64,000 nt of DNA, taken from a virus. The stretch spans positions 1 to 64,000 of IMG/VR virus record IMGVR_UViG_3300025417_000018; one strand, written 5' to 3'. The position numbers were made by a program, and so were the translations under genes. A model generated the notes under the pieces. The model was not told where the DNA came from and did no database searches. It was given only the letters and a program-made list of their open reading frames with translations. Shown here one piece after another: positions 46,902 to 64,000 of this stretch. Every line of letters begins with the position of its first letter. Positions within the stretch are counted from its first letter, which is position 1.

Positions 46902-47522
46902 ATGTCAGTAATACAATTATCATATAAAGTAGAAGGCTTTCTAAAAGTATACGATCCTAACAACGGAGAAGTATTTGTGGAAAAGAAAAATGCCATTAAT
47001 TATGAAAATATGTCAGAATCAATTGCTAACACATTAAGTAATCGTGGTTATGGTCAGATTTATGAAATGGCTTTTGGAAACGGTGGTGCAAGTGTAAGTG
47101 AAACAGGCGTTATTACTTATTTGCCCCCTAACGTATCTGGACAAAATGCGGCATTGTACAATCAAACTTACGCAAAAATCGTAGATGATACTAGTGTTTT
47201 TAACTTGGATCCTACACGTAACAAGATGACAGTAACGCATACGACAGGTACAGTTTATACAGATATATTAGTTCAATGTTTACTAGATTACGGTGAGCCC
47301 GCAGGTCAAGCCGCATTTGATAATAGTACACAAACTGATAGTTCTTATGTTTTTGATGAATTGGGCTTGCTCTCAAATTACGGTACAGATAATAACGGTA
47401 ACGTTATTACTACTTTATTAACTCATGTGATTTTTCACCCAGTACAAAAGAGTTTGAATAGACAAATTCAAATCGATTATACTGTAAGAATACAGAGTTT
47501 AACTAATTTAATAACAATTTAA
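46902..47522 (+). CDS. Virion structural protein with DPN motif
   Basis: A 206-residue protein of a type I recognise from marine T4-like phages just after the wedge genes; role unknown. It starts MSVIQLSYKVEGFLKVYDPN, then EVFVEKKNAINYENMSESIA, followed by a Gly/Asn-rich loop and beta strands (TYAKIVDDTSVFNLDP, LTHVIFHPVQKSLNRQIQ, DYTVRIQSL). The near-identical motif in the small gene just upstream suggests a duplicated docking element. GAGG at 46888-46891 serves as ribosome site. Confidence 0.6.
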   Translation: MSVIQLSYKVEGFLKVYDPNNGEVFVEKKNAINYENMSESIANTLSNRGYGQIYEMAFGNGGASVSETGVITYLPPNVSGQNAALYNQTYAKIVDDTSVFNLDPTRNKMTVTHTTGTVYTDILVQCLLDYGEPAGQAAFDNSTQTDSSYVFDELGLLSNYGTDNNGNVITTLLTHVIFHPVQKSLNRQIQIDYTVRIQSLTNLITI

Positions 47523-47524
47523 GA

Positions 47525-47530
47525 TAAATA
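47525..47530 (+). promoter_or_regulatory. Late promoter core GATAAATAAC for the tail fibre gene
   Basis: AAGATAAATAAC directly follows the stop of the previous gene, with ACGGAG (47538-47543) as ribosome site and the ATG at 47554. Ordinary leader spacing. Confidence 0.5.
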
Positions 47531-47553
47531 ACAGATAACGGAGTAATTAAAAC

Positions 47554-48813
47554 ATGGCATATTCGATTAATAAATTCAATGGGCAACCACTAACTACCAT
47601 TGCAGACGGTACTATCAACACAAATAGTACATCACTATACGGGTTACCCGGTCGTAATTATGCTGGTTATGGTAACGTTTTAGATACAAACTTTGTTTGG
47701 CTAACTGAGAATTTTGCCAATGCAAGTCCTCCTCCTAACCCATTACAGGGCCAATTATGGTTTAATACAAATAATAACACACTAAATGTTTGCCCTACAG
47801 ACTATATCACCAATGCAAATGCTTGGTTGACATTAGCACAATCAGGTAGTTCAGGAACAACAACTTTTGGCACACTACAAGTTACAGGAAATTTAACAGC
47901 AAACAATGCTACAATCACTAATGCATTGGCAGCTGACACAATTACAGTACGTTTAGCAACTGTAACAAGCAATGCAAGTATTGCAAACGCAAACGTTACA
48001 ACAGGTAATATTGGATCATTATACACACAATTTATCAGTACTGGTTCACCATCTACAACAGGTAACATTGTTGGTGCTTGGACAGTTAATGGTTCAGCTT
48101 CACTAAATTCTCAGGGAGGAACCGCAGTATATATCACTGGTGGTAATTTATTGATAGGTAATGTAAATAGCCAAGGTGGCGGTAATATTGGTATTAGAAC
48201 AGATAACTATTATTATGCAAATGGTACACCTGTCAGCTTTGCAGGTACCTATAATAATGGTAACGTGTATGATTATTTGACAGGTAGCAACTCAGTATCA
48301 CGTTTTAGTGGTTCGATTAGCGTTGCAAGTGTCACTACAGCAAACATTACAACTGGTGGAAATACAATTGCTGGTGCGCTTACTGGTAATTTTACATTAA
48401 CAACAGGTTCAAGGTTACAAGCAACATACGCTGACTTAGCAGAACGTTTTGAAGCTGACCAAGAATATGAAGTTGGTACAGTAGTTGAAATAGGCGGAGA
48501 AAAAGAAATCACCGCAGTTAAATTGGATTTAAGCGACAATGTATTTGGTGTAGTTTCAAATACAGCGGCATATTTAATGAATCAAGCCGCAGGTTCAGAT
48601 AAAACCCACCCTCCTATAGCACTCGCCGGTAGAGTAGAAGTTAAAGCAATTGGTCAAGTTAAGAAGGCTGACAGATTAGTAAGTGCAGGCAATGGCATTG
48701 CACGTGCCGCAAAAGCAGGGGAAGCTACACCATTCAACTCAATAGGTCGTGCATTAGCAGACAAAACCACAGACGAAATTGGTTTGGTTCTAGCAATCGT
48801 ATCAATTAAATAA
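47554..48813 (+). CDS. Tail fibre-like protein with C-terminal self-assembly/peptidase-like domain
   Basis: A 419-residue protein. The N-terminus (MAYSINKFNGQPLTTIADGT, then LWFNTNNNTLNV near residue 70) is a common attachment domain of marine phage fibres. Residues 95-300 are a Thr/Asn/Gly-rich stalk with collagen-like or beta-repeat character. Residues about 305-419 (ATYADLAERFEADQEYEVGT, then VVEIGGEKEITAV, DNVFGVVSNTAAYLM, HPPIALAGRVEVKAIGQVKK) form a compact beta domain found at the end of fibres, similar to Peptidase_G2-type self-cleaving or trimerising domains. No catalytic residue can be assigned with confidence. Confidence 0.65.
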   Translation: MAYSINKFNGQPLTTIADGTINTNSTSLYGLPGRNYAGYGNVLDTNFVWLTENFANASPPPNPLQGQLWFNTNNNTLNVCPTDYITNANAWLTLAQSGSSGTTTFGTLQVTGNLTANNATITNALAADTITVRLATVTSNASIANANVTTGNIGSLYTQFISTGSPSTTGNIVGAWTVNGSASLNSQGGTAVYITGGNLLIGNVNSQGGGNIGIRTDNYYYANGTPVSFAGTYNNGNVYDYLTGSNSVSRFSGSISVASVTTANITTGGNTIAGALTGNFTLTTGSRLQATYADLAERFEADQEYEVGTVVEIGGEKEITAVKLDLSDNVFGVVSNTAAYLMNQAAGSDKTHPPIALAGRVEVKAIGQVKKADRLVSAGNGIARAAKAGEATPFNSIGRALADKTTDEIGLVLAIVSIK

Positions 48814-48831
48814 TAAAAGGATTAATAAAAC

Positions 48832-49785
48832 ATGTCATACGCACAATACGGAACAATTCAAGCTAGTGACTATAATGCACTAGTAGGTGGCGATCCTGTC
48901 ACTACATCAGGTGCATTAAACACAGTATGGGCAACCGGCGGCTCAACCGCAGGTTATGGTCAAACTGCATTAGCAAACGTATCTGCAGGTAATTCAGTTT
49001 TTGCTAGTGATTGGGCTAACTTAGTTAATAAAACTTCTAATGCCGCTTCACATCAAGGCACAAGTATCACAGCAGTTACTGCTCCAGTTGTGGGCGGTGT
49101 TATTACTTATTTGTCAGCTATCCCTACAAACTTAACATCAATCTATTCACCTAGATTAAATGCAGCCAGTCAAGGAACCACTGTTGCTAACACAGCAACT
49201 TATGGTAGTACTTGGTCAACTGCATTGACATTTACTCACACAATTACTTTTGCAAACGGTGATGCCGCACGGTATTTCTTTAACTCAGGTGGACAATTAA
49301 AAATTACATGTAGTAATCCAAATAATACTTCGGGTATTAACTTACTAATGAACCAATTAGCAAGTAACGTTGGTACAATTGTAATAAGCGCACCTAGTTC
49401 AGGTACAGCAACAATTGCAAGTACATCGTATAGCGGTGTTCAAAAAGTTGGTGGAGGTGGTAATTCACCAACTGTATTAACAAATAACGGATATTATGCA
49501 TTAACAACAAGCAATGCTAACGTGTTTACACAAACAGCGACAGGTAGCCCTTCAGGTTATGTAAACACATTTATTCGTGTTGTTGCTAAATCAAATGGTA
49601 CGCAAGGTTCACACAGTGACACAGGTAGTGTTATTACTTTATACACAATTTGGGACGAGATTCCTGGTGGCTTAACTGTTGGTACAGGTTCTGCTACAAC
49701 AGTAACAGCAGTTGTTCCAGAAACAACATACTTAAGTAATACTTGGGGTACAATTACTGTAACCGGTACTGTTTCGGGTTCATAA
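48832..49785 (+). CDS. Virion structural protein (fibre/appendage)
   Basis: A 317-residue protein starting MSYAQYGTIQASDYNALVGG, a pattern known from unassigned virion proteins in marine T4-like phages. Residues 45-80 (AGYGQTALANVSAGNSVFAS, then DWANLVNKTSNAASHQG) are the helical head domain; the rest is beta-rich, Ser/Thr/Asn/Gly-heavy and ends LSNTWGTITVTGTVSGS. No catalytic motif. Ribosome site AAAGGA. It is the last structural gene before the modification operon, probably part of a fibre or decoration. Confidence 0.55.
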   Translation: MSYAQYGTIQASDYNALVGGDPVTTSGALNTVWATGGSTAGYGQTALANVSAGNSVFASDWANLVNKTSNAASHQGTSITAVTAPVVGGVITYLSAIPTNLTSIYSPRLNAASQGTTVANTATYGSTWSTALTFTHTITFANGDAARYFFNSGGQLKITCSNPNNTSGINLLMNQLASNVGTIVISAPSSGTATIASTSYSGVQKVGGGGNSPTVLTNNGYYALTTSNANVFTQTATGSPSGYVNTFIRVVAKSNGTQGSHSDTGSVITLYTIWDEIPGGLTVGTGSATTVTAVVPETTYLSNTWGTITVTGTVSGS

Positions 49786-49810
49786 TTTTTATAATGTCTT
49801 TGTGTTAATC

Positions 49811-49818
49811 TATAAATA
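49811..49818 (+). promoter_or_regulatory. Perfect T4-type late promoter TATAAATA before the modification operon
   Basis: TCTATAAATACTC carries the full T4 late octamer. It lies 19 bases before the ATG of the 101-residue gene, with AGGAGAG between. It is the only perfect octamer I found among the candidate late promoters. Confidence 0.7.
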
Positions 49819-49837
49819 CTCATAGGAGAGTATATAC

Positions 49838-50143
49838 ATGGACACAAAGACATTAATTAACGAAGCCAAAGCACGTTTCAATCATAACTCAGCCAAAGCC
49901 TATTTAAAAGACAAATACGACAGCAAACTTATTGTTGCCGAACAAAATGGTCTTTGGCGTGCTGATTTAACAACCATCAATTTTTTGAATTCAAGCAAGT
50001 CAAAAGAAGTAATTCTTATTGACACTTTTAACAATCCTGTCAAAGTAGACAGAAAAACATTGTTAGCCAAATTACAAGATACTTATACAACAGTAATGAG
50101 TGATTGGCACGATGAATGGACAGAACTAGAGAATAACAGATGA
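49838..50143 (+). CDS. Small conserved protein heading the modification operon
   Basis: A 101-residue protein of unknown function. Visible order: basic helix MDTKTLINEAKARFNHNSAK, a beta-rich centre with LIVAEQNGLWRADLTTINF and VILIDTFNNPVKVDRKTLL, and a C-terminal helix with the acidic/aromatic motif MSDWHDEWTELE. I recall relatives upstream of radical SAM or glycosyltransferase genes in pelagiphages, but there is no functional clue. It is expressed first from the perfect late promoter, and its stop overlaps the next start by four bases. Possibly a partner that recognises the substrate (inference). Confidence 0.5.
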   Translation: MDTKTLINEAKARFNHNSAKAYLKDKYDSKLIVAEQNGLWRADLTTINFLNSSKSKEVILIDTFNNPVKVDRKTLLAKLQDTYTTVMSDWHDEWTELENNR

Positions 50144-50943
50144 GCCAAGGGGTACTATTATTCGCCTTTAATAGTCCAAAATACAATTATTACGAAATGG
50201 CAGTGGCTACTGCTAAACGTATTAATCACTTTTTGGGACTTCCAGTTACATTGGTAACGGATGAAGAGTCATTGCCACAAAATCAAACTTATATTTTTGA
50301 TAATACCATTATAACCACAGCCGATAAAACCAATAGTCGTGAATGGGGTGTGTGGATGAATAAAGGTAGATTTCGTGCTTATGACTTAAGTCCATATGAT
50401 GAAACAATACTATTGGACACAGATTACATGGTTAATTCAGATAAGTTGTTAAAACTTTTTGAATTGCCAACAGATTTTTGTTGCCATGATTCTACTAGTT
50501 TTTTAATGCATCCAAACTCTGACCAAGACATGATTAGCGTATATAGTTTTAAGACTATGTGGGCAACTGTTGTAATGTTCAAAAAGACAAATCGTGCTAA
50601 ACAAATATTTGAATGTTTAGAAATGATTCAATCTAATTACGACCACTATGCAACATTGCACGGTTTTATTTCTATTACATTTAGAAATGATTATGCACTA
50701 ACATTAGCCGCACGTATTACCAATGGTCATACTTCTCCTACCGAAGATATTATTCCATGGAATTTGGTACACGTTGGTAAAAACACAAGTGTATACAGAA
50801 ACAATGATGATGAATTCAACACAGAATATACCGTTATGTTTGATAACTGGACTAAAGGAAAAATTCGTAAAGAATATTCAATGGTTAAAGATACAGACTT
50901 TCACATGATGAACAAAGATAATTTTATGGAGCTTATAGCATGA
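50140..50943 (+). CDS. Glycosyltransferase-like protein (GT-A fold), copy 1
   Basis: A 267-residue protein with a Rossmann-like N-terminus (GVLLFAFNSPKYNYYEMAVA), an LVTDEESLP turn, and the probable metal-binding DxD at Asp93-Thr94-Asp95 in ILLDTDYMVNS, the typical position in GT-A nucleotide-sugar transferases. The next gene is its apparent paralogue. ATGA overlap with the preceding gene gives translational coupling. Sugar and acceptor are not predictable. The alternative is a nucleotidyl-binding protein without transferase activity. Confidence 0.65.
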   Translation: MSQGVLLFAFNSPKYNYYEMAVATAKRINHFLGLPVTLVTDEESLPQNQTYIFDNTIITTADKTNSREWGVWMNKGRFRAYDLSPYDETILLDTDYMVNSDKLLKLFELPTDFCCHDSTSFLMHPNSDQDMISVYSFKTMWATVVMFKKTNRAKQIFECLEMIQSNYDHYATLHGFISITFRNDYALTLAARITNGHTSPTEDIIPWNLVHVGKNTSVYRNNDDEFNTEYTVMFDNWTKGKIRKEYSMVKDTDFHMMNKDNFMELIA

Positions 50944-51689
50944 GTAAAGGGTTTGTAATCATGGCTCAGGATACCGAGCAAACAAAATATACAAAATGTG
51001 CTGAAGCATTAAGTAAAAGCATACTACGTGTAATGCCTAATGCAAATATTACAATTATAACCAGTGATATGTTACCATATGGAGATTTAGGTGGATATCA
51101 AAATGATTGGCAAGTATATGAGGCTAGCCCATATGATGAAACAATCAAATTAGAAAGTGACATGTATATACCACGCAGTATAGAGCACTGGTGGGATATT
51201 TTGGCATTACAAGATGTTGTTGTATCAACTACAATTAGAAATTACAAACAAGAAATTTCAGATGCAAGAACCTACCGTAGATTTATTGATGATAATAAAT
51301 TACCAGATGTATACAATGCCATAACATACTTTAAAAAATCTGACACAGCAAAAGCATTTTTTGAAGTTGTTAAAGATGTATTTGAAAATTGGGAAACGTA
51401 TAAAGCTACACTAAGATGTAAACCGCAAGAAGAAGTTAGTACAGATTGGGCATATGCTATTGCATGTCATATTGTAGGAGTTGAAAAAACAACATTACCT
51501 TCATTTAATGAAATGAGTATGGTACACATGAAACAGTTTGTAAACAACAACCCAACTGAAAATTGGACAGACACATTTGTGTACGAATGTTTACCAAACC
51601 AAATTAGAGTGCAAACAGTATCACAACAATATCCATTTCACTATCATATTAAGAATTTTTCTGATAAAATACTGGAAAGCATAAAATGA
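50940..51689 (+). CDS. Glycosyltransferase-like protein (GT-A fold), copy 2, ExD variant
   Basis: A 249-residue paralogue of the preceding protein: GFVIMAQDTEQTKYTKCAEA, TIITSDMLPYG, then DETIKLESDMYIP in which Asp-Thr-Asp is replaced by Glu72-Ser73-Asp74. The shared SPYDETI segment before it aligns the two proteins exactly. It still has a conserved central helix, TYRRFIDDNKLPDVYNA and later EVSTDWAYAIACHIVG. The altered motif could change metal use or signal a non-catalytic partner. ATGA overlap at both ends. Confidence 0.6.
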   Translation: MSKGFVIMAQDTEQTKYTKCAEALSKSILRVMPNANITIITSDMLPYGDLGGYQNDWQVYEASPYDETIKLESDMYIPRSIEHWWDILALQDVVVSTTIRNYKQEISDARTYRRFIDDNKLPDVYNAITYFKKSDTAKAFFEVVKDVFENWETYKATLRCKPQEEVSTDWAYAIACHIVGVEKTTLPSFNEMSMVHMKQFVNNNPTENWTDTFVYECLPNQIRVQTVSQQYPFHYHIKNFSDKILESIK

Positions 51690-52057
51690 CAGTCAGATAC
51701 GTAAAAGACAAAAACGCAGATTTTCTTATTGTTTGGGAACCACCTGTTATGGTGCCTCCCGAATTTAGATTATATTATGACGATAAAGGTAATGTTATTT
51801 CATATGTAGGAGATAAATCCTGCCATATTGAAGGTGGTAACTATATTGTTATCGATAAACAAACATTTGCCGAAGCCCGTCATGATATAAAAGTTATTGA
51901 TGGTAGAATTTCAACAGCGAAAGCAGATGCTGTTGTTTATAAATTAATGCCAAGCAATGACGGAATCAGTTGTTATAGCGAGGATGTAAGTATCGTAGTT
52001 GACGAATCATTTAATGATAAAATGAAATGGAAACTTACTATATATGAACTCGGATGA
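51686..52057 (+). CDS. Small conserved protein, 123 residues
   Basis: Unknown function. Notable features: KDKNADFLIVWEPPVMVPPE, then FRLYYDDKGNVISYVGDKSC and GNYIVIDKQTFAEARHDIKV. I recall relatives in marine T4-like phages beside radical SAM genes, as short beta-rich proteins. It overlaps both neighbours (four bases upstream, 14 downstream), which makes stoichiometric co-production with the transferases likely. No signal peptide or membrane segment. Confidence 0.5.
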   Translation: MTVRYVKDKNADFLIVWEPPVMVPPEFRLYYDDKGNVISYVGDKSCHIEGGNYIVIDKQTFAEARHDIKVIDGRISTAKADAVVYKLMPSNDGISCYSEDVSIVVDESFNDKMKWKLTIYELG

Positions 52058-52997
52058 TATTATTGATGTAGCAGACTTAGATTGCATTTATCTTAGTTAT
52101 GATGAACCACAGAAAGAAGAATTCTGGTTAAAGATTAAAAACATGGTACCTTGGGCCAAACGTGTTGACGGTGTCAAAGGTAGTGATGCCGCACATAAAG
52201 CCGCAGGTGAAGCCAGTGAAACAGAACGTTTTATTCTTATTGATGGCGATAATATGCCACAAGAAAATTTCTTCAACATTCAACTAGATTTTACTGATAA
52301 AGAGGAAACATTTAAAAAAGCACAGTTTCGTTGGAAAGCTATCAATGCTATCAATGGGTTACGTTATGGTAACGGTGGTATGAGTAGTTGGACAAAAACA
52401 TACGTGCGTGAAATGCAAACACATGAAAATCAAACAGAAGGTGATATAACACGTATTGCTGATTTTTGTTTAGATAGTAAAGATAATCTATACTGGGCTA
52501 TGCATGATTGTTATTCAACTACATATCCAAATCAAACTCCCTTCCAAGCATGGCGTGCTGGATTCCGTGAAGGTGTTAAGATGTGTTTAGACAAAGGTGC
52601 GGTACCCTCAGTAGATGTATTCAAAGAAACTGTAGCCATGCGTAATATGAATAATCTAACAATTTGGCATAACATTGGATTAGATGCCGAAAACGGAGAA
52701 TGGGCAATCATGGGCGCACGTATGGGAACGTACATGACAATGCTGACTGACTGGAATCATATTGAAGTTCAATGGTTTGATAACTATCTTGCAATGTGGG
52801 AAAATGTTAAAAATGAAGATCCATTACAGTTAATTAAAAAGTACGGAGATGATTTAAGTGCTAAGTTAGGTTTACCTATGTGTATGCATACCGCAGAACA
52901 AAGTAAGTTTTTCAAACGCCACTATAAAGCAGATGCACGTAATTTAGGACCATTGGTAACAGAAATGGAAGTCATTCGCAGAATCGAAGGTTGGTGA
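52044..52997 (+). CDS. Glycosyltransferase-like protein (GT-A fold), third type
   Basis: A 317-residue protein with a likely DxD at Asp67-Gly68-Asp69 (FILIDGDNMP), preceded by a nucleotide-binding-like N-terminus (DCIYLSYDEPQ, VPWAKRVDGVKG). The middle contains RWKAINAINGLRYGNGGMSS and HDCYSTTYPNQTPFQAWRAG; the C-terminal third is helical. Little similarity to the two upstream transferases, so an independent recruit. The DG-DN turn and the aromatic-rich central part are also seen in unassigned phage transferases. The start overlaps the previous gene by 14 bases. Confidence 0.55.
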   Translation: MNSDDIIDVADLDCIYLSYDEPQKEEFWLKIKNMVPWAKRVDGVKGSDAAHKAAGEASETERFILIDGDNMPQENFFNIQLDFTDKEETFKKAQFRWKAINAINGLRYGNGGMSSWTKTYVREMQTHENQTEGDITRIADFCLDSKDNLYWAMHDCYSTTYPNQTPFQAWRAGFREGVKMCLDKGAVPSVDVFKETVAMRNMNNLTIWHNIGLDAENGEWAIMGARMGTYMTMLTDWNHIEVQWFDNYLAMWENVKNEDPLQLIKKYGDDLSAKLGLPMCMHTAEQSKFFKRHYKADARNLGPLVTEMEVIRRIEGW

Positions 52998-52998
52998 T

Positions 52999-53673
52999 AT
53001 GGATTCTAAAAATGTGCTAAACTCTCAACTATTTGATTTAAACAAAAAAGGCACAATAATTATTGGAACTATGCGTTCTGGTTCTAATTTTCTACGTGCA
53101 TTAGTAGGTTCTAGACTAGCAGAGAGTAATATTCCTTATAATGATAATGGTGAGTATTTTACAGATAGATTTGATGTGGAAGGCACCGACGATGAATATT
53201 CATATTTCAACATGGTTGAAAAACTACAAAAAGTAACAGCTAATAACGATAGTTATAGTGTTGGCACAATTGTCTATACAGAATTAGATATGATTTCATG
53301 CAATCCTAGTAGTTTTAAATGGTATAATGATAACTATCATTTAATTAAATTGTATAGAAGAAACTATATAAATCATTTTATGTCACATTGTATTTTTTTG
53401 CATACCAATCGACAATACAAATATGATACTTTTTCGCAACTTGGTATGCCTTTACCAGTTAAGTATGATATACGTGAAATTAATAATTTTATAAAGAAAA
53501 TTCTAGAACTTAATAGATTTCCTTGCGACAATACACTGGTGTATGAAGACATAGAACCTGTGCCAATCGGTGAAGTGGTAAAAAATATATACAATATAAC
53601 TCCTAAAGAATTTTTTGCTGATTATGATAAGTTAGTAGAAATGTTTAATTTATTGGAATACAATGTCGGGTGA
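52999..53673 (+). CDS. Sulfotransferase-like protein
   Basis: Predicted PAPS-dependent sulfotransferase of 224 residues. The 5-prime-phosphosulfate loop is visible at about 21-32 (IIGTMRSGSNFL), the form used by carbohydrate and LPS/Nod-type sulfotransferases. A second segment, LIKLYRRNYINHFMSH near residue 115, resembles the 3-prime-phosphate-binding region. The C-terminus is helical. The next radical SAM gene starts 11 bases before its stop. With the three transferases it suggests assembly of a sulfated glycan, either on the virion or on host surface material. PAPS would come from the host. Confidence 0.65.
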   Translation: MDSKNVLNSQLFDLNKKGTIIIGTMRSGSNFLRALVGSRLAESNIPYNDNGEYFTDRFDVEGTDDEYSYFNMVEKLQKVTANNDSYSVGTIVYTELDMISCNPSSFKWYNDNYHLIKLYRRNYINHFMSHCIFLHTNRQYKYDTFSQLGMPLPVKYDIREINNFIKKILELNRFPCDNTLVYEDIEPVPIGEVVKNIYNITPKEFFADYDKLVEMFNLLEYNVG

Positions 53674-55228
53674 GTACGACCAATATGCTAGAGACATGCG
53701 TGACCGCTTGAATGCGGTCAGTCCATCACTATGTCTCGCAAAATGGCAACAAGTTTCAATACACTTGCCAAGTGGATTAACACAAAGCTGTTACCATCCT
53801 CCTACGCATAAGATTCCACTAGAGTTATTAAAAGATAATCCTAGTGTATTACACAATACACCTATCAAAATACATGAACGCAAACAAATGCTCAACGGTG
53901 AAAGACCTGAGGGTTGTAGTTACTGTTGGAAAGTAGAAGATGCACAAAGTGATGACCCCAAAGGTCACATGAGTGATAGACATTATCGCAGTAGTGAGTG
54001 GTGGAACGCACCAACATTTGACGAAGTAACAACAAATAGTTTTGACTATAATGTTACCCCTCGCTATGTAGAGGTTAATTTTAATCAAGCATGTAATTTC
54101 AAGTGCATGTATTGCAGTCCTCACCTAAGCACAAGTTGGGAAGAAGAAGTTAAAAAACATGGTGGGTATAAATTATCTGACATGACACACAACAACTTAG
54201 AGCATTTGGAGAAAAAGGGACTAATGCCACTTAAGGTTGCGGCTAAAGATAATCCATATGTTGAAGCATTTTGGCAATGGTTTCCTGAGATTTATCGTAA
54301 GTTACGTGTTTTTAGAATGACCGGCGGTGAACCACTCATGGACAAAAACACATTTAAAGTATTAGACTATGTAAATGAAAACCCACATGGTCAACTTGAA
54401 TTAAGTATAACAAGTAACATGTGTCCTCCAGATCAAAAACTATTTGATAAGTTTTTAGAAAAAGTAAAGGCACTAGAAGAATTACGTACATATGAAGACA
54501 AGGAAAACTTTAATGAGTTCAGCGGTAATCATTGGTATGTAGACAAAGGCTTCAAGCACTTTTGGTTGTTTGTATCATTAGATGGATTTGGGGAACAAGC
54601 AGAATATATGCGTACTGGATTAGAGTTTGACAGATTGTTGAACAATGTTCGTACCTTTTTACGTGAAACAAAATACAGCACAGTTAGTTTTATCAATACA
54701 TTCAACATGTTAAGCATTCCCAGCTTACATAAATTTTTAGAAATGATTTTAACACTACGTGAAGAATTTGGTGGACGTGCCCAAACTGAGTTTACAATCG
54801 CACCCGAACAAACTGAAACTGAAAAAGAAAATAATATTGTACACAAAGTTTATAAGCAAAAGAAATATCAACGTGTATTCTTTGACATACCCATTCTACG
54901 TTATCCACCATGGTTCAGCATACAAAATGCAGGAGAATATGGTATCAAAGAAGTAGAACGTTGTTTGAAATATATGGAAGACAACGTACAAGGTGAAGAC
55001 TATTCGGAAACATTCGAAGGATTTAAACCCTATGAGATATTGAAAATCAAGCGAGACCTTGCTATAATGCAAGAATCTTTGCCAGCGGACCAAGTGTCAC
55101 TAAATAAAACTAACTTCTACATGTTTATTAGTGAGTACGATAGACGTAGGCAAACAAATTTTATGGAAATATTTCCAGAACTAAAATGGTACTGGAGAGA
55201 ATGTATTAAAGCGTATACCAAACATTAA
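53663..55228 (+). CDS. N-twitch radical SAM protein 1 (large HPP/CWK class)
   Basis: A 521-residue enzyme of the N-terminal-twitch radical SAM type. Residues 15-95 have auxiliary Cys positions and class motifs: SLCLAKWQQ, SCYHPPTHK, HNTPIKIHERK, then GCSYCWKVED. The radical SAM motif is CNFKCMYC (Cys144, Cys148, Cys151), followed by RMTGGEPLMDK for SAM binding. The C-terminus ends with SEYDRRRQTNFMEIFPEL, a D-x-RR-x(4)-F-x(3)-FPE motif shared by most of the array. Not recognisable as a known biosynthetic enzyme. The start ATG lies inside the sulfotransferase end. Confidence 0.8.
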   Translation: MSGEYDQYARDMRDRLNAVSPSLCLAKWQQVSIHLPSGLTQSCYHPPTHKIPLELLKDNPSVLHNTPIKIHERKQMLNGERPEGCSYCWKVEDAQSDDPKGHMSDRHYRSSEWWNAPTFDEVTTNSFDYNVTPRYVEVNFNQACNFKCMYCSPHLSTSWEEEVKKHGGYKLSDMTHNNLEHLEKKGLMPLKVAAKDNPYVEAFWQWFPEIYRKLRVFRMTGGEPLMDKNTFKVLDYVNENPHGQLELSITSNMCPPDQKLFDKFLEKVKALEELRTYEDKENFNEFSGNHWYVDKGFKHFWLFVSLDGFGEQAEYMRTGLEFDRLLNNVRTFLRETKYSTVSFINTFNMLSIPSLHKFLEMILTLREEFGGRAQTEFTIAPEQTETEKENNIVHKVYKQKKYQRVFFDIPILRYPPWFSIQNAGEYGIKEVERCLKYMEDNVQGEDYSETFEGFKPYEILKIKRDLAIMQESLPADQVSLNKTNFYMFISEYDRRRQTNFMEIFPELKWYWRECIKAYTKH

Positions 55229-55237
55229 GGAAAACAC

Positions 55238-56770
55238 ATGGCAGGTAAAAAACACACAGAAAGTTTTGCAGAGTATAAAGCACGATTGATTGATCCAATT
55301 AGTGAGAGTTATTGTGCGGCAAAATGGCTAAACGCAACTATTTGGTTGGGTAATGGTCAAACAACAAGCTGTCACCACCCATTAGGTCATCAAATTGATG
55401 CCAATGAATTGATTGAAAACCCTTCAGCAATTCATAATACTCCACATAAAAAACTTATGCGTAAAATGATGCAGGAAGGCACACGTCCACAAGAGTGTGA
55501 GTACTGCTGGAAGATTGAAGATATTGGTCGTAACAACATCAGTGACCGCGTATACAAGACTGCTGTATTTGAAGAAGAACATATTTTAAAAACTGCCAAA
55601 GCAGATTGGCAAGAAAACACAATGTTGCGTACATTAGAAATTAGTTTTGATAGAACATGCAACTTTGGTTGCAGTTATTGTAACCCTAGTTTTAGCACAA
55701 CATGGGTAAAAGACATTCACAAGTATGGCCCATATCGTAACATCGATGGTGATGCCCGTAGTCACTTTGTTAATGCGGCAGACCACGCAAAGCCATTGCC
55801 TGATGAAGTTAACCCATATATTCAAGCCTTTTGGCGTTGGTGGGAACAAGAAGATGGTCTTGCAGATAACTTAGAAGAAATTCGCATTACAGGTGGGGAG
55901 CCATTAATGGCTCCGGGCGTATGGAAACTATTCGAATGGTTCAAAGCAAATCAAGAACGTGTTAAAAATCGTAAAGATGGAAAAGTTATGCGTTATGCGA
56001 TTAACAGTAACTTAGTTCCTAAAGATGATATCATGGATAGATTGATTGAGTTAAGTCACTTTGTCCCGCACTTAGAAGTATACACTAGCGCAGAAAGTTT
56101 AGGCGCACATAGCGAATATATTCGTGATGGTTTCATTTGGGATAAATGGATTCATAATTTAACACGTTTACATACTGAAGGTAATATCAAAAAGACACAC
56201 ATTATGATGACAATCAATAGTTTGTGTTTAGCAAGTATTACTGAGTTCATGGATGAAATACTAGCATTTAAGCGTAAGCATGACACTCACTATCCAACAA
56301 TGAGTTTGAACATCTTACGTTTCCCTAGCTTTCAAAGTTGCTCATTATTGCCAATGGATGTTCGTCAAAAGTACAGCGAAAAACTACAAGTATGGTTAGA
56401 TGAACAAATTGCAAAAGATGAAAGAACAACAGGCGGTAGCCCAATTCTTATGCATATTGAGCGTGAGCAAACACAACGACTGATTGACTATCTTGACGTT
56501 ATTAAAACTCCGCACAAAAATGTTAAAGACCCTGAGCAAAACAAACGTGACTTTAAACAATTCTACCATCAATATGATATTCGTAGAGGTAAAGACTTCC
56601 GTAATACATTCCCGCAAGAGTTTGTAGACTTTTACGATAGTATTGACACAGACTTACCAACTGAAACAGAAATCACAACAGGTCAATATAGTGATGGTAC
56701 AGGGTATATTCCAATTCATCCTGCTGAAGATCCTAGTAAAGATGTGTTTGTTAACCCAGATTTACAATGA
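55238..56770 (+). CDS. N-twitch radical SAM protein 2 (large HPP/CWK class)
   Basis: A 510-residue paralogue of protein 1. N-terminal Cys region: YCAAKWLNATIWLGN, SCHHPLGHQI, HNTPHKKLMRK, ECEYCWKIED. Radical SAM motif CNFGCSYC (Cys141, Cys145, Cys148), SAM-binding RITGGEPLMAP, C-terminal YHQYDIRRGKDFRNTFPQE. The tail of some 35 extra residues is acidic (TDLPTETEITTG). Ten bases separate it from protein 1, with AAGGAAAA as ribosome site, the loosest junction in the array. Confidence 0.8.
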   Translation: MAGKKHTESFAEYKARLIDPISESYCAAKWLNATIWLGNGQTTSCHHPLGHQIDANELIENPSAIHNTPHKKLMRKMMQEGTRPQECEYCWKIEDIGRNNISDRVYKTAVFEEEHILKTAKADWQENTMLRTLEISFDRTCNFGCSYCNPSFSTTWVKDIHKYGPYRNIDGDARSHFVNAADHAKPLPDEVNPYIQAFWRWWEQEDGLADNLEEIRITGGEPLMAPGVWKLFEWFKANQERVKNRKDGKVMRYAINSNLVPKDDIMDRLIELSHFVPHLEVYTSAESLGAHSEYIRDGFIWDKWIHNLTRLHTEGNIKKTHIMMTINSLCLASITEFMDEILAFKRKHDTHYPTMSLNILRFPSFQSCSLLPMDVRQKYSEKLQVWLDEQIAKDERTTGGSPILMHIEREQTQRLIDYLDVIKTPHKNVKDPEQNKRDFKQFYHQYDIRRGKDFRNTFPQEFVDFYDSIDTDLPTETEITTGQYSDGTGYIPIHPAEDPSKDVFVNPDLQ

Positions 56771-57900
56771 CCGATAACAGATATATATGTCCATTGGCTT
56801 TTGGTGCTGTTCATTATGACATGGACAACAAAATGGGACCCTGTTCGTTAAACAACATGGTCAATGTCAAAACAATTGATGAATATCTGAAAGACGAAAA
56901 ACTACAACAATTAAAATCAGACATGAAAAATGGTATTAGAAATCCATTATGTAATTCATGTTATAATTTAGAGGAGATAGACCAAAATATTGGTAGCAAT
57001 AGACAATTTTGGTTGTCAAAAACTGATAAAACTATTTTTGAATCAGATAATTTTTCTCACTTAGAAGTTAGATTTTCAAACATATGCAATTCTAAATGCA
57101 GAACGTGCATACCAAATACCAGTTCACCAATTGCCACAGAAGAAAAAAAATACTTAAATTGGAAGTTTCCGGTATTACGTTATTCTGGGATAGATGAAAA
57201 TTTTATATTAAATCAGTCAAAGCAAATTGCTAGTAATCTAAAAACAGTTACCTTTAGTGGAGGAGAGCCTCTACTACAATGGCAACATTGGGACTTTTTA
57301 GATTATCTTATAGAAAACAAACTAGACCCTCAGTTGTTATATTACAGTAATGCATCACTATTGACATTTAAGAACCAACACATTTTTGATAAATGGAAAC
57401 ATTTTAGTGATGTTATTTTTAGAGTAAGTATAGATGCAGTTGAAGATTCTGCCGAATATTGGAGACATGGAGAAAAATGGGATACAATTATTAATAACGT
57501 TAAACAAGTTAAACAATTAATGCCAAATGTTAAATTAGAGTATACAGTAACTATATCTTGGCCAAATGTTTTTCATGTAGAAAAGATAATTGATGCACTA
57601 GCTTCTTTTGATAATAAACCACAAATTAATTTTAATACAGTATACTCAGATTTGTTTAATTTGCAAGTATTACCTAAAAATATCAAAACACGTGTTGAAA
57701 AATATTTTAATAGTATTGATAAAAATAAAGTTAATATGGATACATTGAAGGGAATGGTTTTATTTATGAACAGTAAAGATAAATCAAATTTGATGACAGC
57801 GGCAATAGCAAGATTAAAAGAAGTTGATTTACGTAGGGAAGAATCATTTATTAATGCGTTTCCCGAATACAAAGAAATGGCGATAGAATATGGATACTAA
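56767..57900 (+). CDS. N-twitch radical SAM protein 3 (short class)
   Basis: A 377-residue enzyme. N-terminal twitch cysteines: YICPLAFGAVHYD, GPCSLNNM, CNSCYNLEE. Radical SAM motif CNSKCRTC (Cys107, Cys111, Cys114), then TFSGGEPLLQW. C-terminal VDLRREESFINAFPEYK. AT-rich codon use and Asn/Lys/Ile richness stand out against protein 2, so it may have a separate history. Four-base ATGA overlap at the front; the next gene starts 11 bases before its end. Confidence 0.8.
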   Translation: MTDNRYICPLAFGAVHYDMDNKMGPCSLNNMVNVKTIDEYLKDEKLQQLKSDMKNGIRNPLCNSCYNLEEIDQNIGSNRQFWLSKTDKTIFESDNFSHLEVRFSNICNSKCRTCIPNTSSPIATEEKKYLNWKFPVLRYSGIDENFILNQSKQIASNLKTVTFSGGEPLLQWQHWDFLDYLIENKLDPQLLYYSNASLLTFKNQHIFDKWKHFSDVIFRVSIDAVEDSAEYWRHGEKWDTIINNVKQVKQLMPNVKLEYTVTISWPNVFHVEKIIDALASFDNKPQINFNTVYSDLFNLQVLPKNIKTRVEKYFNSIDKNKVNMDTLKGMVLFMNSKDKSNLMTAAIARLKEVDLRREESFINAFPEYKEMAIEYGY

Positions 57901-59299
57901 TAACAGAATAATCCCTATATGGGGAGATAATGCAAAGCCTGCTCCTGAAAGCAAAAACAAAGTGTTTTGCATGGCGCCATGGACACACACTTACATAAGC
58001 CCACAAAGCGAACGCAGATTATGTTGTGCCAGTCGTGAAGAACATAGCTTTCAAAAACAATATATTGACAGTAGTAATGATAGCAAGTATGGCAATGTAA
58101 AAGAAAGCGGTACTTCACTTGATGCATATAAGCCTATTAGTCTAAAAGAACATTGGAACAGTCCATACATGCGTGACATACGTGTTAAGTTAATGCGTGG
58201 CGAAGAGATTCCACAATGTGATGTATGCAACAAAAATCTATTGATGGAAGGTTATAGCTACCGCGGTTGGTTTACCGGTGCATTGTTCCGTGACAAAATA
58301 CAACAAGCATTTGATAGCACAGACGATAATGGTTACACCACGATGGAACCAATTAGTTTCGATTATCGCTTTAGCAATCTATGCAATTTCAAATGTCGTA
58401 TGTGCGGAGAACAATTAAGTAGCGCATGGGAAACTGAAAAGAAAACACATGATATGTGGACACCAAAGAATCAACCTTTTATGATTCCGGAAATCAAAAG
58501 TGCCATGCAAGACTTTCAAGTTAATGTTGTGGAAGCAGAATTTAAGGATGCGGTACGCAGGGGTATTGTTGAAGAAATGTATTGGGTTGGTGGTGAGCCA
58601 TTGATGTATGATATACATTGGTGGACATTAGAAGAAATGCTGAATAACGGGAGTAATGAGAAATGTTACATGCGTTATAACAGTAACTTAAGTCGTGTAC
58701 AATTTGGAAAGAAAAACTTATATGATTATCTTCCATTGTACAAAGACTGGATGATGTGTGCAAGTATTGATGGCACTGGTGAAATTGTTGAATACATTCG
58801 CACAGGCATTAAATGGGACAAGTGGTTAGAAAACTTCAAGCAAGGACTAGCATTACCAAATGGTAAAGACAAAATGGTTCTTGATTTAACACTAACTGCT
58901 CCAGGCATGTTTTCAATTAAAGACTTGTTTGACTTGAGTATTGAATTAGATGTTAAGATTGAAACTAAAACAACGTTTGGCTTTCACAATGATATCATGT
59001 GGACACCATTAAGTTGGCCACGTCCTATACTCAACGACATGGTAGATGATATCTTAGAGTACATTACACCACGTGCTACGTGGAAACAAGACACCTTGAT
59101 TGGTAACTTAAAGGCATTAAAAGAAACACGTAAAACACATGCCGAAGAGTGGCCAGAAACATACAAACAGGGTGCTAAAAACGGTAAAGGTTGGGTAGAA
59201 AGACTAGAGCAAATTCGTGAGAATCCGTTAACCCTACGTGACATTTACAGTCGTAACCCTGAATTATTAAAATGGTGGGATAATATTTACAATGAGTGA
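57890..59299 (+). CDS. N-twitch radical SAM protein 4 (CC/CxxC class)
   Basis: A 469-residue enzyme. N-terminal region: FCMAPWTHTYISP, RRLCCASREE, IPQCDVCNKN. Radical SAM motif CNFKCRMC (Cys165, Cys169, Cys172), with a following WETEKKTHDMW insert, then VGGEPLMYDIHWW. The C-terminus ends with TLRDIYSRNPELLKWWDNIY, lacking the clear D-x-RR motif of the other classes. The C-x-APW start is the common N-twitch form found in many phages. Confidence 0.8.
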   Translation: MDTNNRIIPIWGDNAKPAPESKNKVFCMAPWTHTYISPQSERRLCCASREEHSFQKQYIDSSNDSKYGNVKESGTSLDAYKPISLKEHWNSPYMRDIRVKLMRGEEIPQCDVCNKNLLMEGYSYRGWFTGALFRDKIQQAFDSTDDNGYTTMEPISFDYRFSNLCNFKCRMCGEQLSSAWETEKKTHDMWTPKNQPFMIPEIKSAMQDFQVNVVEAEFKDAVRRGIVEEMYWVGGEPLMYDIHWWTLEEMLNNGSNEKCYMRYNSNLSRVQFGKKNLYDYLPLYKDWMMCASIDGTGEIVEYIRTGIKWDKWLENFKQGLALPNGKDKMVLDLTLTAPGMFSIKDLFDLSIELDVKIETKTTFGFHNDIMWTPLSWPRPILNDMVDDILEYITPRATWKQDTLIGNLKALKETRKTHAEEWPETYKQGAKNGKGWVERLEQIRENPLTLRDIYSRNPELLKWWDNIYNE

Positions 59300-60470
59300 T
59301 ACATTATGCGTACTACCCTGGATGCATTTGGCTACGCACCCTAACGGAGGAGCTAGCCTATGTTGCCGTAGCAATCATACAAATGCAATCAGTTGGGCAA
59401 AGAAAGATGACACACAAAGTCTAGTTATGCTTGACAATGATAGTGTTAGTGACATTATGAACAGTAAAAAGTTTATTGAAGTTCGCCAAGCTATGATAGA
59501 TGGACAACGTCCTGTTGAGTGTGAAGGCTGTTGGAGTGACGAAGACAAGGGCATTAAAAGCAAACGTCAATATGAAAACGAACGTTGGGCGCACATTATA
59601 CCTTTACTAGAAAAATCTGCTAAGTTACAAAACGTAGACTTGCGTTATGTAGAGTTACGATTGGGTAATGTATGTAACAATGCTTGTTTAACTTGCAACA
59701 GTTATAGCAGTAGCAAATGGTATCCTGATGAAAAGAAAATTGCTAAAGTGTTGCCTTGGTTCGAATTGCGCCCGCTTGAAAATTTCAAATGGTTTGAAAA
59801 ACCCGAGTTCTATCAAGACTTAGCAGAACACAGTAAAGACGTAGAAGAAATTTACATCAATGGTGGTGAACCTACATTGATTAAAGCACACTTTGAATAC
59901 TTAAAGAAATTGATATTGTTAGATGTTGCACAAAATGTACATTTGGTTTACAGCTTGAACATGATGGATATTCCCAGCAACTTAATTGCATTATGGAAAA
60001 GTTTTAAAAAGGTTACAGTCAACGCAAGTATTGATGACTTGAATGAACGCAACTATTATATTCGTTACCCAACCAAATGGGAACAGACACTTAACAGTAT
60101 TAAAAAACTAAACAAACTAAAGAATGTAGACTGGCATGTTACGCAGACTGTTAGCATTTTCAATATCTATAACTTAGACAAGTTTAGCGATTGGTTAAGT
60201 AGTGAATACAACAAACACCCACATCACAATTATGTGTTATACCCAGACTACTTAAGTCTAGCAGTATTGCCCAACCATATCAAAACTGAGTTGAAAGAAT
60301 ACTATGCTGACAAGTTACCCGAATATCAACGCAATGATTTGTTTGCTAAACTTAACATAGAGTTTCAACCTGAACTACTAACTAAAGCCAAAGACTTTAT
60401 TGTAGCAGTTGACAATGCACGTAATATAAGATATAATGATTACATACCAGAATTAGAGAAATTTTTATGA
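59292..60470 (+). CDS. N-twitch radical SAM protein 5 (CC/CxxC class)
   Basis: A 392-residue enzyme. N-terminal region: LCVLPWMHLATHPNGGASLC, CRSNHT, VECEGCWSDED. Radical SAM motif CNNACLTC (Cys128, Cys132, Cys135), then YINGGEPTLIK. C-terminal DNARNIRYNDYIPELEKF. Closest in architecture to protein 4. Overlaps it by eight bases; followed by protein 6 with an ATGA overlap. Confidence 0.8.
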   Translation: MSDTLCVLPWMHLATHPNGGASLCCRSNHTNAISWAKKDDTQSLVMLDNDSVSDIMNSKKFIEVRQAMIDGQRPVECEGCWSDEDKGIKSKRQYENERWAHIIPLLEKSAKLQNVDLRYVELRLGNVCNNACLTCNSYSSSKWYPDEKKIAKVLPWFELRPLENFKWFEKPEFYQDLAEHSKDVEEIYINGGEPTLIKAHFEYLKKLILLDVAQNVHLVYSLNMMDIPSNLIALWKSFKKVTVNASIDDLNERNYYIRYPTKWEQTLNSIKKLNKLKNVDWHVTQTVSIFNIYNLDKFSDWLSSEYNKHPHHNYVLYPDYLSLAVLPNHIKTELKEYYADKLPEYQRNDLFAKLNIEFQPELLTKAKDFIVAVDNARNIRYNDYIPELEKFL

Positions 60471-61750
60471 TACCAATTATTCCAGATAAGATTAAAGATA
60501 GTTTTTGTTCAGCCAAATGGTTAATGGCTACCATGCACTTTGGTATGGGAGAAAATCACAGTTGCTACCACCCACCAATACATCGTTGGAACTTAGAAGA
60601 TGTAAAACGTGACCCAAGCATGTTGCACAACACCGCACATAAAATTGAGCAACGTAGACAAATGATGAATGGTGAAAAACCTAACGAATGCTATTACTGT
60701 TTTGACATGGAAAAGATTAATCCAGATGTGATTAGTGATAGAAAACGTTTTACCAACGAACAATATGCTATTGAACGCAGAGAAGAAATTATCAATGCAC
60801 CTTATGATAAACATATCAATCCCAGTTATTTGGAACTAAGTTTTAGTAACGTGTGTAACTTTGGTTGCAGTTATTGCAGTCCTGGACAAAGTAGTAAGTG
60901 GGAAACAGAAGTACGCAAGTATGGTAGTTACCCCATTGAAGACCCTACAGTACACAAAGACAAAATGCATGACATGTTATTAGAAGATGACAATCCATAT
61001 ATTGATGCATTTTGGCAGTGGTTACCAGATGCTTACAAAGACTTAAAATATCTACGCATTACAGGGGGTGAACCACTTGCAACTCGCAACTTTATGAAGT
61101 TGTTAGACTTTGTTGCAACAAATCATAACCCCAACTTAACATTGGTTGTAAACACAAACTTGTGTGTACCTGATAAGAACTTAAACATGTTCTTTGAAAA
61201 AGCAACAACATTATTAAATGCTAAAACAATCAAAGGCTTAGAAGTATATACAAGCATGGATACATGGGGCCCACAAGCTGAGTACATTCGTGATGGGTTA
61301 GATATTGAACGTTGGGAAAATACTGTACGCAAAGTAAGTACAACATTTAATGTACCTATTCGTATTATGGTAACGTTTGGGTTAATGAGTATTTTTAACT
61401 TTAAAACATTTATACAGAAAGTTATTGAACTACGCAATGATGGCATAGACATTATGTTTAATTGTGCAAGACTTGTTGACCCTAAACAGTTTGATTTAAG
61501 AATTCTCCCTGATTATTGCGATAAGTACTTTGATGATACAAATGATTTTATTAAAAACAATAATGTAACTAATGTAGAAGAAGAAACGTGGCAAATGGTT
61601 TATGACTTTTGGAAAGCACGACACGACACAATGACAACAGAAGACAGAGATTGGCGTACAGACCAGTTTAGTAAGTTTGTTAATGAGTATGACAAACGCA
61701 GAAATAAAAACTTTAACATGAATTTCCCGGAGTTATCAGGATGGATTTAA
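60467..61750 (+). CDS. N-twitch radical SAM protein 6 (large HPP class)
   Basis: A 427-residue enzyme whose N-terminus is clearly related to proteins 1 and 2: FCSAKWLMATMHFG, SCYHPPIHRW, HNTAHKIEQRRQMMNGEKPN, ECYYCFDMEK. Radical SAM motif CNFGCSYC (Cys130, Cys134, Cys137), RITGGEPLATR, and C-terminal VNEYDKRRNKNFNMNFPEL. About 80-95 residues shorter than proteins 1 and 2, mainly after residue 200. It is separated from its closest relatives by three other genes. Confidence 0.8.
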   Translation: MIPIIPDKIKDSFCSAKWLMATMHFGMGENHSCYHPPIHRWNLEDVKRDPSMLHNTAHKIEQRRQMMNGEKPNECYYCFDMEKINPDVISDRKRFTNEQYAIERREEIINAPYDKHINPSYLELSFSNVCNFGCSYCSPGQSSKWETEVRKYGSYPIEDPTVHKDKMHDMLLEDDNPYIDAFWQWLPDAYKDLKYLRITGGEPLATRNFMKLLDFVATNHNPNLTLVVNTNLCVPDKNLNMFFEKATTLLNAKTIKGLEVYTSMDTWGPQAEYIRDGLDIERWENTVRKVSTTFNVPIRIMVTFGLMSIFNFKTFIQKVIELRNDGIDIMFNCARLVDPKQFDLRILPDYCDKYFDDTNDFIKNNNVTNVEEETWQMVYDFWKARHDTMTTEDRDWRTDQFSKFVNEYDKRRNKNFNMNFPELSGWI

Positions 61751-62874
61751 CACCTTACAAAAATTGTCTAGCACTAACAAATAGTATTTTTATTGCTAAT
61801 GAAGAAAAACCCTACAGACCTTGCTGTTGGTTCAAAACTTATATTGATGCAGTTGATGCAGATGATTATAGAAAACAACTAAGTGAAATGGACTTAGAGT
61901 ATAATTGCGATTATTGTATCAAGCAGGATCAAGGTGGGCAATATAGTTATAGACAACAATTTGATAAACCAGACGAATTGATATTAACAGTTTCATTTGA
62001 CAATATTTGTAACTTGGGTTGCATTACCTGCACTCCTTCAAATTCAACAACATTGATTAAAGAATTTTTTGTTGATTGGCCTGACGGAGTAATGGGTAAA
62101 GATAAAAAGTATTACACACGTTTGCAACAACAAGCTCCTAAGAAAGTAGATTTTGTTAAAACAACTCTAGCCAACAATACATTCAAAACAATACGTGTAG
62201 ACATATTGGGCGGTGAACCATTGATTAATCCTGCTATCTTTGAATTTTTAGATTGGTTAAGCGAACAATCTTATGCAAAAAATACCATGATTAGTATTAC
62301 TACAAATGGTACCACATACAGCGACAAAATACTTAAGTATTTGGATAAGTTTTCTAACGTTATCATTCAGTTAAGTATTGATGGTATTAATCAAGAGTAT
62401 GAATATTTGCGATATGGAAATGATTTTACCACATTAGAAAAAGTATGTGATGAATTTTATAAATTAACTGAAACACACAGTAACTTTTTTATAGGAAGTC
62501 ACTATACATTAAGCTGGATGAATTGTTTGCATTTCGCACAATACTACAATTGGGCACAACGCAGATATCCAAAATGGAATATCTATGTTAGTAAACTAGA
62601 TGTACCAGAACATTTTTCAATTGATTTGTTATCCGTAGATATGAAAACACGTGTGTTCAATAAAGTTATGACCGAATTGGACACCCCAGTTAATGAAAAT
62701 TATGAACGTTGCTTGTTTCTTTACAAAGAGCATATGCTATCCACAACCTATGATTCATATGACAAAGAGTTATTAAGAAGTGGAATAAATTCGTTAAATG
62801 TCTTTGATGGTAGACGTGGTAATACACATCAACCATTGGTACAAGATTTTTTACAATTTATAGGCTATAAGTAA
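61741..62874 (+). CDS. N-twitch radical SAM protein 7 (CCWFK class)
   Basis: A 377-residue enzyme. N-terminal region: LTPYKNCLALTNSIFIAN, YRPCCWFKTY, YNCDYCIKQDQ. Radical SAM motif CNLGCITC (Cys90, Cys94, Cys97), then DILGGEPLINPAIFEFLDWL and SITTNGTT. It is the closest paralogue of protein 8 directly downstream. Overlaps protein 6 by 10 bases, and its stop lies one base before the ATG of protein 8. Confidence 0.8.
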   Translation: MDLTPYKNCLALTNSIFIANEEKPYRPCCWFKTYIDAVDADDYRKQLSEMDLEYNCDYCIKQDQGGQYSYRQQFDKPDELILTVSFDNICNLGCITCTPSNSTTLIKEFFVDWPDGVMGKDKKYYTRLQQQAPKKVDFVKTTLANNTFKTIRVDILGGEPLINPAIFEFLDWLSEQSYAKNTMISITTNGTTYSDKILKYLDKFSNVIIQLSIDGINQEYEYLRYGNDFTTLEKVCDEFYKLTETHSNFFIGSHYTLSWMNCLHFAQYYNWAQRRYPKWNIYVSKLDVPEHFSIDLLSVDMKTRVFNKVMTELDTPVNENYERCLFLYKEHMLSTTYDSYDKELLRSGINSLNVFDGRRGNTHQPLVQDFLQFIGYK

Positions 62875-62875
62875 A

Positions 62876-64000
62876 ATGATTGATTTAACACCTTATAAAG
62901 AATGCTCTGCACATAAGCAATGGATTTTTATTGCCAATGCTAGTCAGATTGAATCAGCAAAAGTATATAAACCTTGCTGTTGGTTCAAATCTAGCATTGA
63001 AGCTAAAACACCTAATGATTTTTATTCTCAATTAGCTGAGTGTGATATTGAAACCAATTGTAAAGGATGTATTGACATGGAGAAATCAGGTCCATGGAGT
63101 CTAAGAACATCCTTTAAGGATAGCATACGTTCGGATAAAGTATTGGTTGTTACTGCATCGTTTGATAACTTATGCAATTTAAAATGCATTACATGTATAC
63201 CTGAAAATAGCACACGTATTGCCGCAGAAAAACTACAAATAGAAGGTAAAGATATAAAATGGTTTAATAAAGTAATAAAGAGTCCGGCACCTGAAAAAAT
63301 TGACTTTATTAAACAATTACTGGCAGAACGTGATTTTGAAGAATTTAGATTTGAAGTGTTAGGCGGTGAACCATTGATTAACCCAATGGTACTAGAGTTT
63401 ATTGATTGGTTAGCAGAACAGCCTTATGCAAAGAATACTGTGATAGTTATCACAACCAATGGAACAACCAAATGTGAAAACATACAAAAATACCTAAACA
63501 AATTCAGCATGGTGGGTATTCAATTAAGTATAGACGGTACAGATAATGTATTTGAATATATTAGGTCTGGTGCAAATTATCAATCAACTAAAGAAACAAT
63601 TGATTATTTTTATCAATATTATACCAATGCATCAAACATGACTTTTGGTTTTAATTATACATTGTCATGGATGAACTCTAGTAATTTCAAAGAATTTATT
63701 AATTGGATAAGTACGGATTATCCAAAATTATCAGATTTATTGGTAACTAAATTAATTGGTCCTAATTATTATTCTGTTGACATATTATCTTCTGACAACA
63801 AACGACAAATATGTGAATATGTTATTAATGGTATAAATCCCAACATAACCAACAAAACTATACTACGTGGTATAGAAATATTTAAACAACATATGGATTA
63901 TTCTGTGCCAAAAGATTTTGATACACGAAAATTTGATATAGCAATAGATACTTTAAATAATATAGATATCTTAAGAAATACAACATACCAAAATGCGTTT
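62876..64000 (+). CDS. N-twitch radical SAM protein 8 (CCWFK class, cut by window edge)
   Basis: Translated directly from the sequence: starts MIDLTPYKECSAHKQWIFIA and stays open for 375 codons to the edge. N-terminal region: YKPCCWFKSS, NCKGCIDMEKSG. Radical SAM motif CNLKCITC (Cys100, Cys104, Cys107), then EVLGGEPLINPMVLEFIDWL and ITTNGTT. Aligned with protein 7 it lacks only about the last 10-20 residues at the window edge. The gene array may continue to the right. Confidence 0.78.
   Translation, partial: MIDLTPYKECSAHKQWIFIANASQIESAKVYKPCCWFKSSIEAKTPNDFYSQLAECDIETNCKGCIDMEKSGPWSLRTSFKDSIRSDKVLVVTASFDNLCNLKCITCIPENSTRIAAEKLQIEGKDIKWFNKVIKSPAPEKIDFIKQLLAERDFEEFRFEVLGGEPLINPMVLEFIDWLAEQPYAKNTVIVITTNGTTKCENIQKYLNKFSMVGIQLSIDGTDNVFEYIRSGANYQSTKETIDYFYQYYTNASNMTFGFNYTLSWMNSSNFKEFINWISTDYPKLSDLLVTKLIGPNYYSVDILSSDNKRQICEYVINGINPNITNKTILRGIEIFKQHMDYSVPKDFDTRKFDIAIDTLNNIDILRNTTYQNAF

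Follow-up and report, generated by a model that had tools for sequence, protein, structure and literature searches.

Tandem N-Twitch radical-SAM genes behind the tail genes of a T4-related phage: a possible late pathway for tailoring a tail glycan

Introduction

Why should a phage place a long run of radical-SAM genes directly behind its tail genes, in the company of predicted sugar transferases? The question is raised by record IMGVR_UViG_3300025417_000018 of IMG/VR (103,401 bp), of which bases 1-64000 make up the stretch of 64,000 nt analysed here as the window. Phages with many radical-SAM genes have been known since 2010, and in the open-licence papers their functions have been proposed only as general metabolism. 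The Campylobacter phages CP220 and CPt10 encode 11 and 12 radical-SAM proteins (PMC2853527), and a 183-kb T4-like genome, TARA_ERS488813_N000010, carries 12 such genes (PMC5332604); the latter, as described, resembles the present virus in radical-SAM count and T4-like affiliation. The run of eight genes was originally presented as unusual, a claim that needs qualifying given these phages with 11 or 12 genes, on which papers appeared in 2010 and 2017, and given that up to 20 matches to the family occur in other IMG/VR records.

The virus and its late-type operon

The portal protein is approximately 52% identical to that of Sinorhizobium phage Phosso, and because of its portal and baseplate proteins this aquatic virus is placed with the jumbo T4-related myoviruses (Phosso, Atu_ph07, PA5oct, RaK2 and others). 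The baseplate genes are followed by a gene for a 6337-aa protein, then o24, o25, o26 and a late-type promoter, beyond which 22 plus-strand genes lie between 49838 and 72666 with a spacing of -20 to +9 bp. The features of the region up to the array are as follows.

27721-46734, 6337-aa open frame between the baseplate and fibre genes
46902..47522, + strand, o24, conserved virion-region gene of 206 aa, with homologues in Atu_ph07 (gp177) and Phosso (293)
47554..48813, + strand, o25, tail/fibre-type protein whose C-terminal part resembles Peptidase_G2, homologous to Atu_ph07 gp176
48832..49785, + strand, o26, fibre-like, S/T/G/N-rich and fast-evolving, candidate acceptor
49811..49818, + strand, late-type promoter TATAAATA, 27 bp upstream of the first operon gene
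49838..50143, + strand, o27, 101 aa, weakly Gp45_2-like (PF17470 E 0.02, below cut-off)
50140..50943, + strand, o28, GT8-like glycosyltransferase by profile homology to o29, with a DTD motif
50940..51689, + strand, o29, glycosyltransferase of GT8/GT-A fold (predicted)
51686..52057, + strand, o30, small protein whose position in the block is conserved
52044..52997, + strand, o31, highly conserved, GT-A-like by weak fold matches, with a DGD motif
52999..53673, + strand, o32, accessory gene, sulfotransferase-like by its GxxRSGSxxL and R...S (PAPS-type) motifs

The late-type promoter that had been reported beside the fibre genes lies at 49811, and either TATAAATA or TCTAAATA is retained at this position in all seven relatives. 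Close relatives have giant frames related to that at 27721-46734, and Phosso and Atu_ph07 have a gene of about 13.5 kb for a giant virion protein at the corresponding place.

The radical-SAM array

All eight tandem radical-SAM genes described in the window are present, each with CxxxCxxC, GGEP and four N-terminal cysteines (C...C...CxxC), and they are spaced at -11 to +9 bp. When the sequence was extended rightward the array continued beyond the window, giving 12 consecutive genes (o33-o44) at record positions 53663-69115 and a 13th at 71392-72666. Scores are given against NF033640 (NCBIfam N_Twi_rSAM, twitch domain-containing radical SAM protein), for which the curated cut-off is 170 bits.

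53663..55228, + strand, o33, N-Twitch radical SAM, core, 288 bits
55238..56770, + strand, o34, N-Twitch radical SAM, core, 290 bits
56767..57900, + strand, o35, N-Twitch radical SAM, accessory, 260 bits
57890..59299, + strand, o36, N-Twitch radical SAM, core, 295 bits
59292..60470, + strand, o37, N-Twitch radical SAM, core, 345 bits
60467..61750, + strand, o38, N-Twitch radical SAM, core, 283 bits
61741..62874, + strand, o39, N-Twitch-type radical SAM, variable, paired with o40, 161-166 bits
62876..64000 (ends at 64033 in the record), + strand, o40, N-Twitch-type radical SAM, 167 bits
67919-69115 (record), o44, radical SAM of another type, 35 bits
71392-72666 (record), 13th radical-SAM gene
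73596-75107 (record), NodU-type carbamoyltransferase (significant match)
75116-80428 (record; L009:13116-18428), o51, 1770-aa repeat protein

Ten of the 13 copies exceed the cut-off and two fall just below it (161 and 167), while o44, at 35 bits, is not a member; its N-terminal region is missing, and at its C-terminus SPASM is matched weakly. The twelve N-Twitch-type copies resemble NF033640 in combining an N-terminal Twitch region with a radical-SAM core, although the model defines a sequence subfamily to which the library assigns no function. At its N-terminus the o42-group profile aligns with the BtrN Twitch region (E 2e-5), which places an auxiliary-cluster domain at the N-terminal end; since the match is confined to that domain, it is uninformative on substrate.

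Decay of the copies was considered and rejected, as no copy is broken and all frames are open. Pairwise identity among the paralogues is mostly 14-35%, so the copies are not redundant recent duplicates; o39 and o40 alone are close (44%) and look like a more recent duplication. Downstream of the 12-gene run are three SGNH-like genes, the 13th radical-SAM gene and a further SGNH-like gene, the SGNH-like assignments coming from motifs and sub-threshold Pfam matches.

Transferases and tail genes upstream of the array

Three glycosyltransferase-fold genes and a sulfotransferase had been proposed between the promoter and the array. For o29 the assignment held, through its predicted fold: the AlphaFold model (pLDDT 94.9) matched the GT8-type enzymes LH3, glycogenin and LgtC in Foldseek with probability 1.00 and E 3e-6, and a sequence-profile search of the PDB gave a weak glycogenin match (E 0.2). 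It also held for o28, a paralogue of o29 (hhalign 97.8%) conserved adjoining it; at the DxD-type metal-binding position o28 has DTD and o29 has EAD or ESD, with E and D conserved. The third gene, o31, is weakly GT-A-like: its model (pLDDT 89.4) has glycosyltransferases as best Foldseek matches, but these are weak, with TM-scores of 0.15-0.4. The putative sulfotransferase o32 has PAPS-type motifs as its support, but gave no significant match in Pfam, NCBIfam or PDB sequences. Of seven close relatives just one has it, and in the rest its place is taken by a methyltransferase or another gene, or is empty. Sequence-profile searches of the PDB with o28, o31 and o32 returned nothing usable, and the products of 49838-50143 and 51686-52057 are neither glycosyltransferases nor sulfotransferases.

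Among the tail genes, o24 is 51-53% identical to Atu_ph07 gp177 and Phosso 293 and 83-90% identical in close relatives, and o25 matches PF11962 at 26.3 bits (cut-off 25). The fast-evolving o26, a candidate acceptor of the modification, is 57-69% identical in relatives, and o31 is 74-82% identical in close relatives.

Conservation among related phages

A version of o37 with 74-80% identity is found in seven IMG/VR records, which hold 5-17 family matches apiece. In the five to seven relatives compared, o33, o34, o36, o37, o38, o41, o42, o43 and o44 have orthologues at 55-89% identity. Their dN/dS values, which are rough because many of the pairs approach saturation in dS, are mostly 0.02-0.1, with o41 and o44 looser at 0.12-0.21 and the terminase at 0.09; strong purifying selection acts on most core copies. 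The genes that vary among relatives are o32, o35, o39/o40 and the SGNH-like genes, and a methyltransferase, an FkbM-type methyltransferase or an SDR may be inserted.

A profile search with o31 found at least 577 related stretches. In 79 of the 80 records kept from this search o25, o26, o27 and o29 lie upstream of o31, and in 75 of the 76 that extend far enough this block, which corresponds to 46902-52997, is followed by a radical-SAM gene within three genes of o31; o26 is present as two or three copies in nine of the 80. The searches with o42 and o31 also supplied 50 selected large records, in which the N-Twitch family count ranges from 1 to 20. Because the records were selected by those genes, these figures describe that group rather than phages overall.

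A tblastn search with three array proteins against 50,697 phage records found no comparable array, the best isolate being Vibrio phage K566 (OZ196521.1:161581-178879), with five N-Twitch family matches of which two exceed the cut-off. In CP220 two nucleotide-sugar-transferase-type genes adjoin five of the radical-SAM genes, a likeness to the present operon, whereas the CP220 and CPt10 clusters differ in being dispersed and interchangeable and in their association with an amidinotransferase. None of the CP220 and CPt10 proteins exceeds the NF033640 cut-off (best 31-35 bits) and their similarity to the array is weak; by sequence, the enzymes belong to another family. The host-recognition cluster of pelagimyophages combines GT8 genes and radical-SAM cassettes near tail-fibre genes, but the passages on it describe no conserved multi-subfamily array (PMC7029224).

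The same subfamilies in other phages and in bacteria

The genes o33, o34, o42 and o36, assigned by best profile, occur in that order in the marine phage contigs L249, L253 and L237, and an o37-like gene comes last in L249 and L253 (in L253 tied with o42). These three contigs and L275 are filed under bacterial MAGs and carry homologues from the o25-o31 block, for which reason all four were set aside as bacterial candidates and treated as probably mis-binned phage; L248 was doubtful and was left out of the chromosomal set.

Chromosomal occurrences were found in some predatory bacteria, in the Bacteriovoracaceae and Oligoflexia. Bacteriovoracaceae UBA6144 (L241:4031-16027) has eight N-Twitch genes in one stretch beside an obgE-like gene, including o33-, o34-, o36-, o37- and o42-types in an order differing from that of the phage. 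A second member of the Bacteriovoracaceae (L273) has o37-, o36- and o42-types near leuS- and def-like genes, and an Oligoflexia genome (L234) has o34- and o42-types. In trees, phage and bacterial members are joined with strong support for o33 (0.99), o37 (0.95) and o42 (0.91), and with weaker support, about 0.7, for o34 and o36. No recognised glycosyltransferase was present in the stretches examined around the L241, L273 and L234 clusters, and a Pfam tally of the operon neighbours of bacterial N-Twitch genes gave no dominant family or glycan-enzyme signal and only a few secreted-protein domains, so that the substrate cannot be read from bacterial context. In bacteria, the pathway does not need virion genes.

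What speaks most for a single pathway is that several subfamilies occur together in separate lineages: because four or five of them recur jointly elsewhere, the balance leans towards a multi-enzyme pathway and away from redundant duplicates. The dedicated multi-enzyme line that the original prediction placed in this late operon is accordingly supported by the deep, non-redundant paralogues, purifying selection, the conserved array and bacterial recurrence, and the locus looks like a real multi-step modification pathway. Its position and late-type promoter make a target on the virion or host surface plausible.

Possible functions of the pathway

The tentatively preferred reading, with a probability somewhat below even, is that radical chemistry tailors a glycan late in infection and that the phage's glycosyltransferases attach this glycan to a tail protein. 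It is favoured because of the late position, the linkage to tail genes and the sugar-type enzymes. Evidence on the other side comes from the bacterial clusters, in which the stretches examined and the operon neighbours gave no dominant glycan-enzyme signal, and from the radical-SAM site of Atu_ph07 and Phosso described below, which points to protein modification. Several distinct radical-SAM enzymes would act sequentially on one sugar or glycan, the candidate reactions being oxidation, dehydration, epimerisation and other C-H functionalisation. SGNH-like enzymes and the NodU-type carbamoyltransferase may decorate the glycan further, helped in certain phages by a methyltransferase, SDR or sulfotransferase-like enzyme. 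The GT8-like pair (o28, o29) and o31 would move the glycan to a tail protein, most simply o26 or o25, which would let the virus vary the chemistry displayed at the end that contacts the receptor. A bolder form, rather unlikely as a whole, is that about ten non-redundant radical-SAM enzymes build an undescribed glycan on the phage's own tail, that aquatic phages and predatory bacteria have traded the core of four or five subfamilies, and that the structure made depends on the length of the array. The conserved block, running from the tail genes through the GT8-like pair and o31 to the N-Twitch genes, makes a defined gene set with candidate acceptors and genetically testable bacterial counterparts, and the uncharacterised N-Twitch family gains a set of naturally co-occurring enzymes.

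Most radical-SAM enzymes of the SPASM type use peptide substrates, which lends some weight to direct, RiPP-like modification of side chains or backbone in virion proteins, with glycosylation separate or later. In addition, o39 gives weak scores against peptide maturases, CefB and PapB among them, and o26 is almost always adjacent and sometimes duplicated. In Atu_ph07 (Agrobacterium) and Phosso (Sinorhizobium) a radical-SAM site likewise lies behind o24 and o25 homologues (L070:21909-28647 and L069:25272-33015) and pairs three or four radical-SAM genes with a cupin-like gene and a protein of about 300 aa ending in CHxSCHASCHxSRSRR. These radical-SAM genes gave no N_Twi match at E 1e-6, and the set is possibly a phage-borne peptide-modification set. 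The Cys/His-tailed protein at this matching site speaks for direct protein modification, but repeated His-Xaa-Ser or Cys-His motifs are absent from the record and from the relatives examined other than Atu_ph07 and Phosso, the operon has no obvious small precursor gene, the chromosomal clusters lack a conserved neighbouring protein in the data examined, and glycan-type accessory enzymes recur. Direct modification is a rival reading of low probability.

It is also unlikely that the locus is simply a recombination hot spot gathering radical-SAM paralogues that act separately. The range of 1 to 20 copies per record and the turnover of accessory copies would fit such gathering, but the core subfamilies keep their order, strong purifying selection acts on most of them, and sets of four or five are found together in other phage contigs and a bacterial chromosome.

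Modification of the host envelope, in which lipopolysaccharide or another surface polymer would be altered, for example to block competing phages, carries a similarly small probability. The GT8 genes of the pelagimyophage host-recognition cluster were interpreted in this way by their authors (PMC7029224), LgtC itself belongs to GT8, and some bacteria have the subfamilies without virion genes; the late-type promoter and the constant association with tail genes argue against it, and the timing would be late for excluding a second phage. Hypermodification of DNA or nucleotides, with the enzymes making or tailoring a modified base, is very improbable: phage DNA-modification systems can include carbamoyltransferases and glycosyltransferases, and a thymidylate-synthase-family gene lies at record 95522-96433, but the cassette follows tail genes and has a late-type promoter, and the fold of its glycosyltransferase is GT8-like.

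The C-terminus of the 1770-aa protein o51 is an o31-like domain by hhalign, although the o31 profile gave no HMMER match to it. The protein comprises about 15-17 repeats of approximately 66 aa, and its relatives have 12-15.
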